Below are positions 17,504-64,000 of a stretch of DNA of 64,000 nucleotides, piece by piece (within the stretch, counting starts at the first letter, position 1; each line of letters starts with the position of its first letter). Under the pieces are notes generated by a model that was not told the origin of the DNA, did no database searches, and worked only from the letters and a program-made list of their open reading frames with translations. The stretch is from assembly GCF_038396675.1 (NCBI RefSeq), contig NC_088933.1, forward strand, positions 16,076,001-16,140,000, written 5' to 3'. This DNA is from Hydra vulgaris. Lineage: Eukaryota; Cnidaria; Hydrozoa; Anthoathecata; Hydridae. Made by a program: the position numbers and the translations under genes.

Positions 17504-27996
<10,493 letters not shown>

Positions 27997-34966: not shown

Positions 34967-35058
34967 TGTCACATTAGTTATTTGATGTTACATTAGTTAT
35001 TTGATGTCACATTAGCTATTTGATGACACATTAGTTATTTGATGTCGCATTAGTTATG
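34967..35058. repeat. 19-bp tandem repeat, five copies
   Basis: TGTCACATTAGTTATTTGA repeats at 34967, 34986, 35005, 35024 and 35043 with point changes. Confidence 0.9.
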
Positions 35059-35139
35059 GCAAAATTGTCTGGGGAAGTAAAAGTAAGTTAAAACCTCTAG
35101 ATTGTCAGGGGTAGCATGTAGTCAAATAACTAATTGAAG

Positions 35140-35380
35140 TATCCAGAAGTTTCCAGAAGTTTCCAGAAGCATGCAAAAGCTTCCAGAAGTTTCCAAAAGA
35201 AGCATCTGGAAGCATCCAGTAGCATCCAGAAATATCCAGAAACATTCAGAAGCATCCAGACGTATCCAGAAGCTTCCAGAAGCATCGAAAAGAAGCATCT
35301 AGAATCTTCCAGAACAGGTTCACACAGGTTCATTTTACTATATAAGAGACATGTAAATCAACATGTAATTCAGTCAGTAT
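35140..35380 (+). promoter_or_regulatory. Heat-shock-type promoter: HSE array, TATA box, possible initiator
   Basis: From 35146 the sequence reads GAA-n2-TTC-n2-GAA-n2-TTC-n2-GAA without breaks, and degenerate units with the same 10-bp period continue to about 35290. A further perfect unit AGAATCTTCCAGAA lies at 35301-35314. A TATA box (TATATAAG, 35339-35346) follows about 25 bp later, and a TTCAGTCAGT initiator-like site about 30 bp after that (35369). Alternating GAA/TTC is the binding pattern of heat-shock factor trimers. The downstream gene is the Tc1 transposase at 35631. Inferred function: heat- or stress-inducible transcription of the transposase. It might instead be an LTR or a captured hsp promoter. 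Confidence 0.7.
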
Positions 35381-35557
35381 ATGGAAGTCAATCAGTCAGT
35401 ATTATCAAGACAGTTTATCGAAGTGAGTTTTATCAAAGTGTTTTATCGAAGAACATCAATACAAGAAGTGAAATACAACAAGTGTTTCATTACGTCAATA
35501 CAGTCCACATCCAACCAAGACGTTGTGTTCCACAGAGCATTATTGCATCATCACAAG

Positions 35558-35623
35558 GTAAATGTAACTCAGTAAGCCTTGAGAAGCGTGATTATTTATT
35601 TTTATTATTTTTATAACTTCAAG
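35558..35623 (+). other. Possible 66-bp 5'UTR intron of the Tc1 transposase
   Basis: Donor AAG|GTAAAT at 35558 and, after a T-rich tract, acceptor TTCAAG at 35623, eight bases before the transposase ATG. Small GT-AG introns are plausible in this genome, but no transcript is available. Confidence 0.4.
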
Positions 35624-35630
35624 CGCAAAA

Positions 35631-36642
35631 ATGGCTCCCGACAGTCTTGGATTGGAACTAAGAAAGAAAATTATTGGCGATTACGTAAGTGGAATGTCAC
35701 AAAAAAGTATTTGTGATAAATATCGCGTGAAAAAATGGATCGTATCAAGACTATGTTCCAAATATCGTTCTACGGGGAAGTTGGCAGCAGATAACATAGG
35801 TGGAAGCCCGCGTTCCACCACTTCTAGAGAGGATTCTATGATTGTCAGATCCTTCAAGAAGGATCCCTGGATATCATCAGTCGAGATACAAAAGCAATTA
35901 GAGCTGCTTCAATCGGACCGAACAATCAGACGACGTTTTGTTGAAGCCGGATTTTCTCGACGCCCTGCAAAGAATTCGCTGATTTCACTAAAAAACCAGA
36001 AGAAAAGACTCCTGTTTGCTACATCTCATATTGACTGGAATGTACAGAAATGGCGAACTGTCCTGCTCAGTGATGAATCGAAGTTCAACATCATTGGAAG
36101 CGATGGCATTTGCCGTGTTCGTCGACTGGCCGGAAAACGCCTCGATTTACGTTACTGCCATAAAACCGTGAAGCATGGTGGAGGCAATGTAATGGTCTGG
36201 GGATGTTTTTCTGCTAACAGCTAACGGTCTAGGTCCAATACATCGAAACGATGGAATAATGGACCGTTTCATGTATAAAAATATCCTGAAAGATGTTGTG
36301 TTACCTCACGCTGAATGGAATATGCCAATAAAATGGGTTTTTCAGAAAGACAACGATCCGAAACACACTGCAAAAATAGTCAAGCAATGGTTTCAAGACA
36401 ACCACCTATCGGTGATGGATTGGCCGCCTCAATCTCCGGATCTCAACCCTATCGAGAACCTGTGGGAGATCGTCAACCGCAGAATTAATCGTGAAGGTGT
36501 TCGTAATAAGGATCAACTGTTTAAACAAATCCAAAAGGCCTGGGCAGCAAGTCCACAAAGTTTCATTGATCACCTGATCAAATCTATGCCTCGAAGATGC
36601 GAGGCTGTGATCGACAACAAAGGATTCGCCACGAAATATTGA
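35631..36642 (+). pseudogene. Tc1-like transposase (DD34E) with a 7-bp duplication
   Basis: The ATG at 35631 starts a paired-like HTH region (MSQKSICDKYRVKKWIVSRL), a GRPR-like linker (GGSPRSTTSREDS) and a second HTH (QSDRTIRRRFVEAGFSRR). The DDE core has LLSDESKFN (first Asp), VKHGGGNVMVWGCFSAN, QKDNDPKHTA (second Asp) and PDLNPIENLW (Glu), with 34 residues between the last two. A tandem GCTAAC-A/G duplication (36213-36219 and 36220-36226) shifts frame after GCFSAN. Removing one unit joins it to GLGPIHRNDGIMD and the rest to the stop at 36642. Otherwise the gene is intact (about 336 residues, normal for Tc1). A second copy lies at 63617-64000. Confidence 0.92.
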
Positions 36643-36655
36643 TAGCGAAATACAG

Positions 36656-36896
36656 CTTGGTCAACATTTTGTCGAGTTGCACTTGTTTTGTCCAGAAGGA
36701 AATCAACTTTTTTTAATACTTTTGATTAATTTATTAATTTTCGTGTACAAATAATGAAGTTTGTGATGAATAAAACTTGAAGAACTTTGTCTCTAAACAG
36801 TTACATAGTTATTTCTCTAAATTAAAAAAATGCAGCACTTTTATATAAAGAAACTAAATTAGCATTATTTGGTTGCACTCGTTTTGTCCGATACTA
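36656..36896 (+). mobile_element. Right end of the Tc1 element, IR/DR type
   Basis: An inner repeat GTTGCACTTGTTTTGTCC (about 36676-36693) and an outer copy GGTTGCACTCGTTTTGTCC (36871-36889) form the two direct repeats of an IR/DR end. The outer end matches, inverted, the end at 63617. No matching left TIR is visible upstream of the transposase. Only an internal TIR-like stretch GTCAAATAACTAATTGAA (35120-35137) remains, so the left tip may be lost. Confidence 0.8.
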
Positions 36897-39167: not shown

Positions 39168-42100
39168 TTAGGAATTTTTCCTCTTTTTTGAAGGCTGTTG
39201 TGTTGGCTGCTCTGCCAAAGCATTATCTTCAAGTTCATTTAAATCTGAGGTTCTTCCAGGATTGGTTGAGTCAGAACTTGTGGCAGAAGAAGGTTCAGAC
39301 TCTGAAATATCATCCAAACTCTCAGCAGGGACATCCTCCTTGTTCAAATACCACTTTCCTTTTACCAAGTCTTTTAAATGATCATAATTTTTGTTGATGT
39401 AAATCATTTTCTCAGTTGTCTTTGGATTTAGATTATGCCTATGTTTTGTCAGCAGTTTCCCTGCAGTGGAAAAAGCTCTCTCTGATGAAGATGAAGTTGG
39501 TGGAATGGCCAATACCCCTCTTGCAATTTTGGCAAGCATTGGAATTACCTTTTCATTATTCCTCCACCACTCCAGGATGTCTGTGTTTGTTCCAACACGT
39601 GGCAACAGTGCATAGTCATTGAACTCTGATCTAAGAGTCTCAATTTCCATTGAACTTAGAGACAGTGACCCTTGGGCAGCTAACGAAGTGTTAAGCAACT
39701 CTGCCATGTTCTCTTCACAAGTATCATCATTTGGTTCAAACAGCAAATCTGGTTCAACAAGGACAAGTTTGTTTTCTCTGAATTGAAGTGTGGATTCATG
39801 TTCCTCTATCAACAAGTTAATCATGCTTTCTTTTAAATCATCTGGAAGAAGTGAACCTCGTACAACTGGATTAAACAAGTGTCCAAGAGCAAGTGCACTA
39901 ATCTTTGCACCTTCCAAAGGGAATTTTTCTGTCAAAAGATCAAGTGCTTTGTTTAAAAAAGCTTTGTATGAATGAGAGCCTGCATCTTTTTGAATCTCTT
40001 TTCTGAGAGTCAAAAACAAAGATTTGATTCGCACAAGAGCAAAATCATTTCTCACTTCCTTGTCACAAGACATCCATTCACTTGTTTTCTTGATTGTTTG
40101 CAAAATGGGGAGAATTTCCTCTAGTGGTGTGATATCCCCATGAGTCAAGAGAACTTTTTCAAAATGATTTGAAATGTCATACACATTTAGATTTAAAATT
40201 GCCTCCTTCATCTGCACCATTGTTTGAATCATGATACAGTGTGAATTCCACCTCGTTTTGCATGGCTTGGGTATAACTTTGTAGGTGAGTTGTGTGTCTT
40301 GGCACACCTCAGAGAGAAGGGCTCGACATGGTGCAGAATGTGATAATCTAGTGGTGATTTTGTTTAGTTTTTGGATAGCTGCTTTAAGTATTGGGTCTGC
40401 TTCAACAGCTATTTGAAGAATATTATTAAGCTTGTGATCAATGCATTGAAGGCCTCCACTGTTTAAGCTCTTGACAAATTTTGCATTACTCAAACCTGAC
40501 CTCATGTTTGCTGCACCATCCACAACACAAAAAATCTCATCTGAAGTTTTGAGAACAGGGAAGTCCAGGGAAATCAGTTTATCAATTTCTTTGCCAATGT
40601 TTACACCAGTATGCTTGCCTTTGAACTTGGCAACTTTAAGTGTGTATGAATACAACCTCCACATCGGACAAATGTAATGTATTGTGAAGCATTGAAATGA
40701 GTCTCCAGGCTTAGATGTCCAGTGATCTGTTGTTAGTGTAACTGCCTGGCCATTTAAATCATTCTCAAGTTTTTTCTTCATGGCATCACGAAGGCAATTA
40801 TTGAAGTAGAGGTACCTTATACTTTGCTAAAGTACTGCTGCGCTTTGTGTTTGCCTCAGGATGGATGTCAAAAAGAAAATCTTTCCATGCATCAGTATCC
40901 ACAACATGTAGTGGTAGGTTCAAGCGTACAAGAAATCTTGTGATAGACATATCAATTTCTTGTTGGCGAGGACTTTTGTATCCATACTTTACAGATGACT
41001 TTTTTGAGTTCAAACAACTTCCTGTTTTTTGTGACAAGTATCGTATTTTATCCTCCACACTTTTCTTCTTTAAGTCTTCCAATTCATCATTTTGTTCTGG
41101 GTGTTTGGTTCTAAGATGGAATAGCATCGTAGATGTTGATCCATTTTTGTAAGAGAAATACACAGATAGACCTTTCTCATGGCATGTATCACATCGTGTT
41201 CTATCACCTAAAAACACAAAAATTACTATATTTGTCTGTGGCAAAGCATATGCAGGCCTAGTAATTACTTGAGTTGTTGATGTTAGATCCAGAGAACGGG
41301 CTGAGGGCTTGGGGGTCAGGGGGTCTACACATGGTATGAGGCTGTTATCATTCATTCTATGCAATTACCTTCTGTTGTCCAACAATCTTTAACTATATAT
41401 GAATCACTTTATGCACTATATAGGTAATAAATAATTAGTTTTTTAACTTTTTGTCACTAATTTTGTTGTAATGTTTAAAGATATTGTATAGAGATGGGCC
41501 GATTCCGAAAAATACCGATTCCACTCAGAATCGCATCTTTTTGTTCAATTAAACGGCTCAGCATGTGGAAGGTGCTATTCCATCTAGTTGGCTCATCTTG
41601 AATAATGCTGTGTTTAGGCAGTCCCAGAATCTCCTGAGATTGTCTCAAAAGTTTGTATGACTTAACTGAATGTTTAAAGTGTCCTACTATTCTTCTACAG
41701 GTAGCAGTTAGTAAAGATATGCGTTCATTGTTGAGGCAGCCGTCTTTCACAACCAACTGAAATGTATAGGCAAGACAAGTAATATTTGTAAACTTCCCGA
41801 CTTCCATAGCAGAAAAAATATTTTTGGCATTATCTCTTACTACTACATTGAGTTTTTCAAGTAGTCCCCAACGCTCAAATGATTCATTCATAGAGTTAAC
41901 AAGATTGGTTGCGGTGTGGGACTCATAAGGAAAAGGTACCACACCGTAACCAATCTTGTTCTGTTGGCTCCACATGTCGGTATTTATACTATCATGATTA
42001 GCTTTTTTTGCCAAGAACTGAATTTTACTTGATACCTTCTGATAAATGCTAGGAATTTCAATAGTCGAGAAGTATTTTCTGCTTGGTATCGTATACCTTG

Positions 42101-44800: not shown

Positions 44801-46528
44801 ACAATGGCTTTCATAAATTTAGACAGCACTATTTAGACGCACTCATTTTTTTTTACTTATATGTAAGAAAATACTTAAAATAAAAATAAAATAAAAGTGC
44901 TACCGCTATGTTTGATATATAGTTTAATAGAGGAAGTGAAACTCTATTATAGAGTACCTTAATTTTTTTTACAGGATATTTATTACTCATTTTATATCAA
45001 TTAACACAAAAAAGTTAATTGATAAGCTTGATTTGATTTTATTCATAAATTTAGACGCACGATCAAAAAAGTCTTATATCCTAATAATTGATAGTTAATT
45101 AGTAGTTTTTTCCCCATATTTCTTATTAATAGGCCAAATTAATTGATTTTTTCAAAAAACCTTATATAAATATTACTTACCTGGAATAAGTTAATCATTA
45201 TTTAATAAATAAACAAAAGTTAAGTTAGTTTTGCACAAAAAAGACGCGAAAAATGGGCAAAAGACGTATCGCTCAAGGTGAAAGATGGCAAGCTATTGCT
45301 CACATCAAAGAAGGAACCAAAAGTAATAGAGAAATCACCAGGTTCATTGGAGTTTCTGAGAAATGCATTCGGACAACGAAGCAAAACTTTCGTCACACTG
45401 GTGGTGCCAGCGAGAAAGCGAGGCCAGATAGACCCTTGTCAACCAACAGAAAGGACGATAGTGCCCTTTTTAGAGCTGTCAGAGCTAATCCAAGAATTAG
45501 TTACAAAGAATTGACCACAGAATTTAATACAACGCGAAATACATCTATTTCTCAAAGCACAGTCCACCGAATACTTATCAAATACAAGATTGGAGTCTAC
45601 TCTGCTTCGAGGAAACCGCTCCTGCGTCCATATGAAGAACAAAGGAGACTAAAATGGTGTCGTGAAAGAAGGTACTGGACAATAGAACAATGAAAAAAAA
45701 AAATGTTGTGGAGTGATGAGAGTAACTTTGAGCTTATCAATCGCAAATCTAACTTAACAGTCAAAAGATTGGCTCACGAAAAGTATTACACCAGGTACAT
45801 TAGACCGACTGTACAAAGTGGAGGAGGCTCGATAGGAATCTGATCATGCTTCAATTACAAAGGTGTTGGTATGTGCCAAACATACACCGGAAGAATCAAC
45901 TCCAGAATATACTTAAAAGTACTGGAAAACAACCTAATTCCATCAATTGACCTGCTTATGCTCAATGATAAACCATGGAAACTTCAACAAGATGGCGCTA
46001 CTGCACATACTGCATATTATACAAAGGAGTTGTTCAAATATAATAATATCAAGACAACACCGTGGCCTCCATACTCACCTGATTTGAACCCGATTGAAAA
46101 CATTTGGGCTTGGATTGACCGTAAATTGGCAAAGGTTCAAATTTCTACATTTGACTAGCTGAACGTCCTTAAGGAGACCTGGTATAGGGTCCCAGAAGCG
46201 ATGTGCAAAAATCTTGTTGAGTCTATGCCTAGAAGAGTTCTTAGTTGTATTAAAGCAAAAGGCGGATACGCAAAATACTGATTGGTTCATAAATTAAGCC
46301 TCCTAATGTATCGTGCGTCTAAATTTATGAATTTTTTTTGTTTGTTTTTTTAATACCATGTAGTTATACCTAATTATTACTTAGTATTTGTATTTTTTTT
46401 TTGTAAATTTTGTTAAAATTTACAAAAATTAAAACCCCGAAATCTTTTTTCGTTATTGTTTTATCGTTAAAAAACTAAAAATTTCTATTCTCAAATGAGT
46501 GCGTCTAAATTTATGAAAACTACTGTAT
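44801..46528 (+). mobile_element. Tc1-like transposon with IR/DR ends
   Basis: Four copies of TTCATAAATTTAGACGCAC mark the ends: outer left near 44811-44845 (locally rearranged, ..AGACAGCACTATTTAGACGC), inner left 45050-45068, inner right 46308-46330 and outer right 46494-46520. The left pair faces the right pair. TA lies at the outermost positions (44800-44801 and about 46527-46528). This arrangement is the IR/DR type known from Sleeping Beauty-like elements. Confidence 0.85.
45253..46281 (+). pseudogene. Tc1 transposase (DD34E) with three in-frame stops
   Basis: The ATG at 45253 (MGKRRIAQGERWQAIAHI) leads through an HTH (EITRFIGVSEKCIRT), a GRPR-like PDRPLS linker and a second HTH (SQSTVHRILIKYKIG). 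The core follows in the same frame: LWSDESNFEL (first Asp), SGGGSIGI, QQDGATAHTA (second Asp) and PDLNPIENIW (Glu), 34 residues apart, ending GGYAKY at 46281. Stops are TGA at 45691, TGA at 45841 (between GI and SCF, where Trp is usual) and TAG at 46156. No frameshift is needed, so decay is by point mutation only. Confidence 0.9.
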
Positions 46529-59025: not shown

Positions 59026-60332
59026 ACCACTGGTGACAAAAACTTGGCACAATCTTTGATAAGCTAAAACTTATTGAATTTTTAGTTATCCAGTCTTAAT
59101 TTTTTAGTTATTTTGTTTATAAAGTGTTACTTATCTTTTACTGAAAGTTTTGTTTACTTTGATTAATTAATAAAAAAGTTATCCAAAAATGAAGTCGACT
59201 ACATTAATTGAACAAGTGTACAACTATTGTAATTTGCATCCTAACGCTAAAACGAAGAGCACCATAGAGTATTTTGTTGCCTCTAATCACCCCGAAAGAA
59301 CCATTAAATATTATATGGCAAAGTGGAAGAACAATGAGCCAAAGTCTCATAAGCCTGGATCAGGCAGAAAACCAAAAATTATGACTGCTGGGAACATCAA
59401 TCGCCTGAAAGGTCTTTTGAACAATCGGTCTGGAACTTCAACAAGAAAAATTGCAAATAAATTCAAGTGTGATCATTCCTACATTGTAAAAACAATAAAA
59501 AACAAAACAAACATTTGTTATTTTAATCCCTGATCGCACTGAGAAAAAGTTAAAGCAGTTGTAACTGAAGTGTGGAAGAATTTGTCGCAAATTCCGAAAC
59601 CGTGACTTTGTCATTGACGATGAGCCTTATTTTACATTTAAACATACAAATAAAAATTTGAATGTTGGATTTTACTCAGATGACGCAAAAAATGCACCAA
59701 AAAATGTAAAATATAAGCGCAAAAGCAAATTTGAAAAAAAAATTCTTGTGTGGATTACCATATCCCCTCATGGAATCTCGAAACCATTTATTGTTCCTGC
59801 GAGACTGGCAATTAACCAAACAGTGTACAAAAATGATTGCATCATCAAACGATTGATTCCTTTTATCAACAAACATCACAGTGATGGTAATTATGTATTC
59901 TGGCCTGACTTGGCCTCTTCACATTATGCTAGAAGTGTGACCAATTACCTCGATGAGAAAAATATCTGTTATGTAACAAAATTTGATAATCCAGCATGTG
60001 TCCCAGAATTACGACCAATTGAAGATTTCTGGTCGATTCTTAAAGGCTATGTGTATGAAAACAATTGGGAAGCTGAAAGTGAAGATCAGCTGCAAAAAAA
60101 AATCCATTCTTGTTTAAAAAAAATTGATAAAAATCTTGTACAAGGCATGTGTGAACATATACAAAATAGTTGATGCCGTACGTCATAATGGCGAGAAATC
60201 ATTATTGCAGTCCCGAAAATAAAAAACTAATATATTGTTTAATATTCTGTACAATATTTTTTGATCATTAAACTTTTAGTTGTACTATTACTGTCTGTGT
60301 TTATTTTGTGCCAAATTTTTGTCACCAGGGGT
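59026..60332 (+). mobile_element. Tc1/mariner-superfamily transposon, 1.3 kb
   Basis: Left end ACCACTGGTGACAAAAACTT and right end (inverse of ACCCCTGGTGACAAAAATTT) are flanked by TA (59024-59025 and 60333-60334). One transposase fills the element. A single TIR pair is present, without the inner repeats seen in the other Tc1 elements here. Confidence 0.92.
59189..60173 (+). pseudogene. Tc1/mariner-type transposase with D-37-E spacing
   Basis: The ATG at 59189 gives an HTH region (TKSTIEYFVASNHPERTIKY), a GRPK linker (GSGRKPKIMTAG) and a second HTH (TSTRKIANKFKCDHSYIVKT). A frameshift near 59520 and a TAA near 59560 precede RDFVIDDEPYFTF (first Asp). The open frame 59658-60173 then has KKILVWITISPHG, YVFWPDLASSHYA (second Asp) and CVPELRPIEDFWSILKG (Glu). 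By count 37 residues separate the second Asp and the Glu, against 34 in the other Tc1 copies here. It belongs with the D37E branch of the superfamily. Confidence 0.85.
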
Positions 60333-61221: not shown

Positions 61222-62845
61222 CAGTTATGGACAAAATAATAGTAGTGTGATTAAAATTAACGAATTAATATTATTATCTTTAAACAGTTACTGAAAATGA
61301 AATTGTAATACTGGATTATTAATTAAATAGGTGTGAGATGATAAACTAATTAGTAGAAAATTTTAAATTTTTGCTTTTATTTATAATAATTATATAAGTA
61401 TAAAAAAGAGGTTGGACATAGTAATGGAGGTATTTATTTATTTAATGTTATATTGTAAATAATTTATTTTATTAACAAAAAAATAATATAAATTTAATTA
61501 AACAATAGTAAAAAATTAATATTTTATCGCATCCTCCCAGTTTTTTATCACAGCTTTGCATCTATTCCGGATTGAGTTAATCAAATTTTGACAACATTCT
61601 AAAGGAATGTTGTTCCAAGCATTCTGGACAACTTGCCATAACTCCTGCTGATTTTTTGGTTTTTGACTATAAACTGCCTCTTTTACATCCGTCCAAAGGT
61701 TTTCGATCGGATTGAGATCTGGTGACTGTGCAGGCCAATCCATAACTGCAACCCTATTCTTGATGAACCAACTTTTTACCCTGCAACTGGTATGCTTGGA
61801 TCATTGTCATGCATATAAACCCATCTTAGGGCATATCTTCTACTGCATAGGGCAACATGGTATTTTGTATAATTTGAAGGTATATGTCTTGGTCCATAAT
61901 ACCATTAATCTTATAGATCGGCCCTACGCCATAATAAGAAAAACAACCCCAAATATTTATTTTTGCTCTGCCATGTTTTACAGTTTTTATGATGTATTGC
62001 GGTTTGTATGCAGAGTTAGGTGGCCTCCTTACATACATCCTGCGCCCACTTGACCCAAATAAAACAATTTTGCTTTTATCAGACCACAAAATATTACGCC
62101 ATTTTGAAACAGGCCAATCTGCATGCATTTTTGCAAAATGTAATCTTGCTACCACATGCCTTTTTTTCAAAAGGGTAAATTTTCTTGGGCTTCTGGCGAC
62201 TAACTTACTTTGTACTAACCACCTACGTACTGTTCTTGAAGAATAGCTTAAATTTAAATCTTCTTTAATATGGCGGGAGGTTACAAAAGGATCGGCAACA
62301 GCAGCACGTTTTATCAATCTGTCTTCATGTTCAGTCATTTCTTGTTTTCGGCCCCTTGTTTCGCCTACATTTTTGCATTTTAGAGCATTTCTAATCATCT
62401 AATGTTCTAATGTTTTCCCTTCTTGTTTTAATTTAATAATTAGTTATCTCTTTTCTGCACTACAATGCTTTGCATGACCCATAATTTCTATTTATAAAAT
62501 AAATTTATACGATTATTTTATATATTTCATTAAATTAACACTAAAATTAATCTTACCTTTAATTAGTCTTACTGAAACCAAATAAACAAAAAGCTAATAT
62601 AAATAAATTAATAGGAAACAACAGATATGTTATTTTAACCTACAAAAATATATATGTCTGTATATAACAGTCGGGACTTCCTTAAAGTAATTTGAACAGT
62701 GTTACCAACAGTTTTTACTCCAATTTCATTATTCAGTGTTTGTATTACTGTTATGCTTAAATTTATCAATTTATATTTAAATTTACATAAAATTATTATC
62801 ACAAATCATTGTTTTACTAGCCACTACTATTATTTTGTCCACGAC

Positions 62846-62972: not shown

Positions 62973-63067
62973 CTCTTATATGTTGTCAGAAAGTTTTTTC
63001 CGTATTTTGTTGACAAAATGTAAAAATTAAAATGCAAGACCGGAATTTTTTTTTTAGTAATTGATAG

Positions 63068-63382
63068 ACTGCCTGCCCCAACCAAACCCTCAGTCGATGT
63101 AGCAGCACTCCCTTGCGAGTCAGGCTAAAAGATAGTAAAAGTAGCAGCACTCCGTTGCGAGTCAGGCTATTTGTCAGTCGATATAGTAGCACTCCATTGC
63201 CAGTCAGGCTATTTGTCAGTCGATGTAGCAGCACTTTGTTGCGAGTCAGGCTATTTGTCAGTCGATATAGCAGCACTCCGTTGCGAGTCAGGCTATTTGT
63301 CAGTCGATGTAGCAGCACTTTGTTGCGAGTCAGGCTATAACATAGATGATGTAGCAACACTCTGCACATGATTTACAGTAAA
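63068..63382 (-). repeat. 42-bp minisatellite, copy 2 (inverted relative to copy 1)
   Basis: About seven units of AGCAGCACTCCGTTGCGAGT plus CAGGCTATTTGTCAGTCGATGT-type sequence. The block has the same flanks as copy 1 read in reverse: GCCTGCCCCAACCAAACC on the low side and CATGATTTACAG on the high side. More units than copy 1 (about four), so unit number varies between copies. Confidence 0.85.
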
Positions 63383-63616: not shown

Positions 63617-64000
63617 CAGTATCGGACAAAACGAGTGCAACCAAATAATGCTAATTTAGTTTCTTTATATAAAAGTGCTGCATTTTTTCAATTTTGAGAA
63701 ATAACTATGTAACTGTTTAGAGACAAAGTTCTTCAAGTTTTATTCATCACAAAGTTCATTATTTGCACACGAAAATTAATAAATTAATCAAAAGTATTAA
63801 AAAAAGCTGATTTCCTTCCGGACAAAACAAGTGCAACTCGACAAAATGTTGACCAAGCTGTATTTCGCTATCAATATTTCGTGGCGAATCCTTTGTTGTC
63901 GATCACAGCCTCGCATCTTCGAGGCATAGATTTGATCAGGTGATCAATGAAACTTTGTGGACTTGCTGCCCAGGCCTTTTGGATTGGTTTAAACAGTTGA
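63617..64000 (-). mobile_element. Second copy of the heat-shock-linked Tc1 family, cut by the window edge
   Basis: The outer end CAGTATCGGACAAAACGAGT (63617, preceded by a TA array) and inner repeat CCGGACAAAACAAGTGCAAC (63818) match the right end at 36656-36896 in inverse orientation. The element continues past 64000. Confidence 0.92.
63871..64000 (-). CDS. Tc1 transposase C-terminal end (partial)
   Basis: The minus-strand frame from the window edge reads FKPIQKAWAASPQSFIDHL and ends DNKGFATKY, stop at 63871. It is nearly identical to the C-terminal end of the transposase at 35631, indicating a recent common source. No lesion is seen in this part; the rest lies outside the window. Confidence 0.9.
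   Translation of the reverse strand, partial: QLFKPIQKAWAASPQSFIDHLIKSMPRRCEAVIDNKGFATKY

Follow-up and report, generated by a model that had tools for sequence, protein, structure and literature searches.

Results

Anatomy of the Tc1 copy in the window

The window, i.e., the whole stretch of 64,000 nucleotides analysed here, covers C14:16076001-16140000 in the Hydra vulgaris genome (911,502,276 bases, 15 contigs) and holds a damaged Tc1 transposon copy on the forward strand with a putative heat-shock promoter ahead of its transposase. Tandem Repeats Finder delimits a period-10 repeat, GAAGCATCCA, with 17.3 copies at 35136-35314. This array of 17 units of 10 bp contains perfect alternating GAA/TTC runs, i.e., heat-shock elements (HSEs), one of five units (GAAnnTTCnnGAAnnTTCnnGAA, 35146-35168) and three of three units (35181-35193, 35269-35281, and 35302-35314). 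Most copies have a second 5-unit HSE that includes the run starting at 35181 and that has decayed in the window copy. The last run ends 25 bases ahead of the TATA box TATATAAG (35339-35346), and an initiator-like TCAGTC (35370-35375), recognised as a consensus match, places the predicted transcription start at the A at 35372, 31 bases past the first T of TATAAG. The window copy has the layout of a heat-shock promoter, with at least three alternating nGAAn units ahead of a TATA box. An earlier sequence-only reading had pointed out the GAA/TTC alternation with its perfect part at 35146-35168, a further perfect unit at 35301-35314 (the 3-unit HSE at 35302-35314), the TATA box 25 bp downstream, and the TCAGT initiator-like site, and our scans bear it out on these points.

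The predicted 5' UTR exon (35372-35557) is followed by a predicted 66-bp UTR intron (35558-35623, AAG/GTAAAT...CTTCAAG/C), which reads as had been proposed. Its splice sites are kept in the 20 copies compared, its divergence among 40 copies is low, and its acceptor could also take a spliced leader. The transposase ATG lies at 35631. Domain matches place an N-terminal part with HTH_Tnp_Tc3_2 at 35631-36224 and a C-terminal part with DDE_3, in another frame, at 36193-36642; PF01498 and PF13358 both score above their cut-offs, as in a Tc1-type HTH and DDE_3 transposase. With the residue that we take to be the second catalytic D, 34 residues separate D and E, which is the DD34E/Tc1 spacing. On the reverse strand, the right inner repeat (36676-36693) and the right terminal inverted repeat (TIR; 36871-36896), then TA, close the element.

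The window copy lacks the left arm, which measures about 290 bp elsewhere in the family, with the breakpoint at 35125-35136; no counterpart of this arm was found upstream of the array within the window. The description of this transposase as nearly intact overstates its condition, as the frame shifts near 36193-36224 and the left arm is absent. The window copy is dead, and because the left arm and the reading frame are lost it cannot move by itself; it could still bind heat-shock factor (HSF) and start an RNA. A second copy contributes its right end at 63617-64000 on the reverse strand, where the window edge truncates it.

The TIR-like stretch at 35120-35137, previously taken as a hint that the promoter lies inside the element, is not the left TIR of the family (CAGTATTGGACAAAACATTTGCAACC). 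It looks like the core of a period-19 repeat (TGTCACATTAGTTATTTGA, 4.8 copies, 34967-35057) in inverted form and sits at the left-arm breakpoint, and together the two may mark the rearrangement that removed the left arm of the window copy.

The window contains further repeats. Other Tc1/mariner-type transposase pieces, with PF13358 or PF01498, lie at 20259-20945 (reverse strand), 45229-45693 (forward), 59565-60173 (forward; this one scores below the Pfam cut-off), and 61826-62398 (reverse), and BLAST joins them to the HSE-array family by one 54-bp stretch only (61693-61746). A hAT transposase with a long open frame (PF05699) occupies 39168-40826 on the reverse strand. A 42-bp tandem repeat (5.9 copies, 63090-63338) has a translation that resembles that of a repeat near the window start, at about 559-996 (open reading frames 559-996 and 62986-63372). 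A search of the window against Rfam gave no matches.

The HSE runs exceed chance

Outside the array, the window holds two 3-unit runs only, at 1617 and 47222. In 100 dinucleotide shuffles of the window, three-unit runs numbered 1.03 per shuffle on average and four-unit runs 0.01, and a run of five units never arose. When the array itself was shuffled 2,000 times, the longest run was of four units, obtained once, and five units were never reached. The HSE runs of the array exceed chance.

The promoter is part of a Tc1 family

A search of the genome with the block 35140-35640 gave 1,081 candidates, of which the best 40 were scored, all at 96-100% identity, and 39 copies other than that of the window were fetched. 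Two pairs among them (L024/L025 and L045/L046) look like local duplicates, so the copies are not fully independent. Tc1 left-arm sequence stands beside the array in 39 of these 39 copies; it abuts the array or lies within 10 bases of it in 38, and the remaining one has a small deletion there. At least 90% of the left arm is kept in 34 of the 39, and the shortest piece measures 38 bases. In these other copies the left TIR lies about 290 bases and the left inner repeat about 70 bases ahead of the array, giving the order left TIR, inner repeat, HSE array, TATA box, UTR with intron, transposase, and right TIR. Both ends are present in 28 of the 39 copies, with lengths of 1,584 to 2,128 bp (median 2,047.5), and TA flanks both sides in 22 of these 28. 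The family has the TIRs and TA target duplication of a Tc1 element, the left end being missing in the window copy.

Because the 39 copies had been picked using the array, we also sampled from the right end (745 candidates, 40 scored, eight loci cut out, one of them that of the window). Left arm, array, and UTR are together in five of the seven non-window copies, and the other two (L053 and L055) are cut inside the UTR, akin to the window copy cut at the array. Exact whole-genome counts are likewise independent of choosing copies by their array. The exact start of the open reading frame, AAAATGGCTCCCGACAG, occurs at 1,298 places, 882 of which have TATATAAG at a fixed spacing, 268-290 bases upstream, and the left inner repeat is followed within 60-90 bases by the array start at 892 exact places; the reversed-pattern control gave 0 in each of these three counts.

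Protein records carry a trace of the same arrangement. P0003 fuses the translated array to the N-terminal region of the transposase, and in P0121, P0126, and P0003 the string (G)QNK.N is the translation of GGACAAAACAAGTGCAAC upstream of the array, GGACAAAACAAGTGCAAC being the right-end inner repeat. P0126 corresponds in nr to Hydra vulgaris LOC124814402, in which the block appears in translation; it aligns to 70% of the query at 73% identity.

The left arm beside the array in all 39 fetched copies and the 892 exact joins show that the promoter is part of the Tc1 family, not an LTR. In the family at large the array and core promoter lie between left TIR and ATG, the arrangement that the earlier reading had proposed to look for across genomic copies, and neither a short left end without the array nor a solo LTR was seen among the fetched copies. 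A copia-like LTR with HSEs, considered as a candidate, was dropped on account of the left Tc1 arm upstream of the array in other copies. In viral_contigs, the transposase search turned up 24 pattern stretches with no relative among them, and the array, TATA, and TIR patterns had no matches; the TATA pattern also had no matches in genome_contigs.

Divergence among copies

A run of at least five units is kept in 39 of 40 copies (the 39 fetched and that of the window), and the majority sequence of the 40 has two 5-unit and two 3-unit runs. The stretch from the TATA box to the splice donor is less divergent than the intron (93 of 8,315 vs 52 of 2,640 letters, p = 0.0016), a comparison that is weak because the copies share ancestry; it fits, weakly, a transcribed and spliced leader. 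The UTR is also less divergent from the majority than the open reading frame (median 1.27% vs 2.87%); since the query used to choose the copies spanned the UTR, this choice accounts for at least part of the difference. From the position of the start codon, the frame is short (6 to 216 residues) and broken in all 39 fetched copies, and the ATG is lost in three, so the current activity of the family is doubtful.

Long HSEs in the Hydra genome

The perfect 5-unit HSE, GAANNTTCNNGAANNTTCNNGAA, has 1,187 + 1,155 = 2,342 matches in the genome, compared to 12 + 10 = 22 for the reversed pattern. Matches are not loci, as one copy can hold two HSEs and longer runs match repeatedly. The first 100 of the 2,342 matches, which cover contig 1 up to 38.8 Mb, resolve into 65 loci. 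Among these listed matches, 44 of the 65 loci lie near an exact open reading frame start or a left-repeat-plus-array place. As to the other 21, the HSEs of 12 are identical to one of the two majority 5-unit HSEs of the family, those of 5 are one letter off, and those of 4 are two to five letters off. The Tc1 family thus holds at least 44 of the 65 loci with long HSEs in this stretch of contig 1, and the figure is probably about 61. Read from the element, a 5-unit HSE lies within 900 bases upstream of 27 of 46 exact open reading frame starts and within 400 bases of 22 of the 32 left-repeat-plus-array places (contig 1 to 38.8 Mb in both cases). In the Tc1 HSEs, the TTC-GAA spacers begin with C. 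Five-unit HSEs in which neither spacer does so have 136 + 127 = 263 matches (control 21), some of which are long Tc1 runs on the other strand and others unrelated sites.

HSF and HSP70 genes of the host

HSF is present in the genome, as a heat-shock promoter requires, with five matches to its DNA-binding domain (PF00447) over the cut-off, one of them with internal stops. HSP70 genes have 44 genome matches. No 5-unit HSE lies within 200 kb of the HSP70 gene at 27.27 Mb on contig 1, and none of the 37 matches to 7-unit HSEs of the non-Tc1 spacer type, all of them listed, lies near a listed HSP70 match. Six-unit HSEs have 168 matches (control 4), those listed lying ahead of the HSP70 genes that contigs 10 to 12 carry. 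Hydra's own HSP70 genes are thus not clearly marked by long perfect HSEs.

Two arrangements were observed in passing. Three 6-unit HSEs that are not of the Tc1 spacer type are spaced by ~7 kb at C7:6985194, 6992133, and 6999088, possibly a tandem of heat-shock genes. The HSP70 genes at C12:14.34 Mb, C12:19.60 Mb, and C10:38.57 Mb form inverted pairs with equal scores, their members separated by about 9 to 17 kb, and look as though gene conversion had kept them alike.

Discussion

A probable stress-responsive promoter inside a Tc1 family

We consider it likely that Hydra harbors a Tc1-type family of DD34E spacing with its own internal promoter of HSEs, TATA box, and initiator, through which HSF would have driven the element under stress while it was active. 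The heat response of the promoter is what we infer from its motifs. Heat or protein-damaging stress would free HSF, whose trimers would bind the 5-unit HSEs at the far end of the array and the 3-unit HSE 25 bases before the TATA box. Transcription would then start near 35372, the UTR intron would be spliced out or a spliced leader added at 35623, and the transposase would be made, so that transposition would have been coupled to stress during the active life of the family. The earlier proposal that the element carries a heat-shock promoter stands insofar as the HSE array and core promoter lie inside the Tc1 family, and falls for the window copy, which is no working element. Heat may once have mobilised the family and may still act through its copies. 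Weighing against this reading are the broken frames of all 39 fetched copies and the lack of a 5-unit HSE near the HSP70 gene of contig 1.

The array could also be a minisatellite in the Tc1 5' region, grown by slippage, with an accidental likeness to HSEs and a TATA promoter that works independently of heat. We regard this as unlikely. In its favour, the length of the array varies mainly by 10-bp steps (26 of 39 copies measurable), and two further observations also weigh against a functional reading: TTC is found in only 6 of the 17 units, with 11 of 17 not being perfect HSE units, and the HSE core letters show no significant conservation beyond the rest of the array among the 40 copies (1.70% vs 2.06% divergence, p = 0.38). 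Slippage accounts poorly for the runs, however, since shuffles of the array hardly ever give them (four units once in 2,000, five units never), and for the position of the units just upstream of a well-spaced TATA box and initiator. Across the 17 units, GAA and the TC of TTC hardly change whereas the spacers vary; the HSE letters are less variable than the spacers when the sixth position (TTC vs ATC) is left aside (p = 0.015, a post hoc choice), compared to p = 0.16 with that position included.

An array that serves the transposase or another host factor, as a transposition enhancer or a part of the left end, would agree with its place in full-length copies, about 70 bp inward of the left inner repeat, and with the two ends of the element being unlike apart from their repeats. 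Its resemblance to the TIR repeats is not above chance, however, and it is placed against the TATA box, and we find such a role quite improbable. The least probable account by far, and in our view hardly tenable, is that of a solo LTR, or of a captured host promoter, present beside the window copy only. The window by itself would suggest it, as there is no left arm upstream of the array; yet none of the blocks fetched has flanks of its own outside Tc1, the left arm standing beside the block in 39 of 39 other copies (among the best 40 of 1,081), and left repeat and array are joined at 892 exact places. A Tc1 family with a built-in, HSF-responsive promoter remains our preferred reading.

Consequences for the host genome

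It is conceivable, if short of probable, that this family has brought a heat-shock promoter to at least a thousand sites in Hydra and thereby become the chief source of strong HSF sites there. Under heat, HSF would occupy arrays throughout the genome and RNAs would start into neighbouring sequence, which would reshape or buffer the heat-shock response of the host, in convergence with the Helitrons of C. elegans. If HSF uses the arrays, a large part of Hydra's potential heat-shock wiring would be transposon-made. Few animal cases bear on the long-standing question of whether DNA transposons are mobilised by stress through promoters of their own. In this family the parts of such a promoter can be read plainly and recur in hundreds of copies, in a laboratory animal with a chromosome-level genome.

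TcMar-Tc1 is named among the Hydra elements with cell-type-specific expression in one study, where the putatively active TcMar-Tc1 elements, which may or may not include the HSE-array family, are all expressed at least in interstitial stem cells; the term "heat shock" is absent from that study (PMC12220107).

Comparison with known systems

The open-access literature searched yielded no report of HSEs in a transposon promoter of Hydra or another cnidarian, and no DD34E/Tc1 element in which an HSE array separates the left inner repeat from the open reading frame. We know of no such DD34E/Tc1 element. Sleeping Beauty-like DD34E/Tc1 elements have inner and outer repeats, with the inner repeat about 200 bp in, and a TA target. 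The Hydra family shares with them the TA target, the TIR with an inner repeat at about that distance, and the transposase of HTH and DDE_3 domains. ONSEN (ATCOPIA78) of Arabidopsis is an LTR retrotransposon with heat-responsive HSEs in its LTR; like the Hydra Tc1, it is a mobile element with HSEs upstream of its own start site, whereas the Hydra Tc1 has no LTR.

The nearest precedent is Helitron1_CE of C. elegans, which is reported to carry HSEs in its transposase promoter and to be induced by heat, and whose kin hold almost two thirds of the HSEs of C. elegans (Garrigues et al. 2019, PMC6927752). Helitron1_CE and the HSE-bearing Caenorhabditis Helitrons are, like the Hydra Tc1, DNA transposons with clustered HSEs in the transposase promoter. 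On both sides the elements hold most HSEs, the Hydra figure referring to long perfect HSEs in a sampled stretch. Helitron1_CE is a rolling-circle element of a nematode for which HSF-1 binding and induction were tested, whereas the Hydra Tc1 is a cut-and-paste element of a cnidarian for which both are predicted from the sequence. The Hydra Tc1 family would be an independent case of a DNA transposon equipped with clustered HSEs in its transposase promoter.
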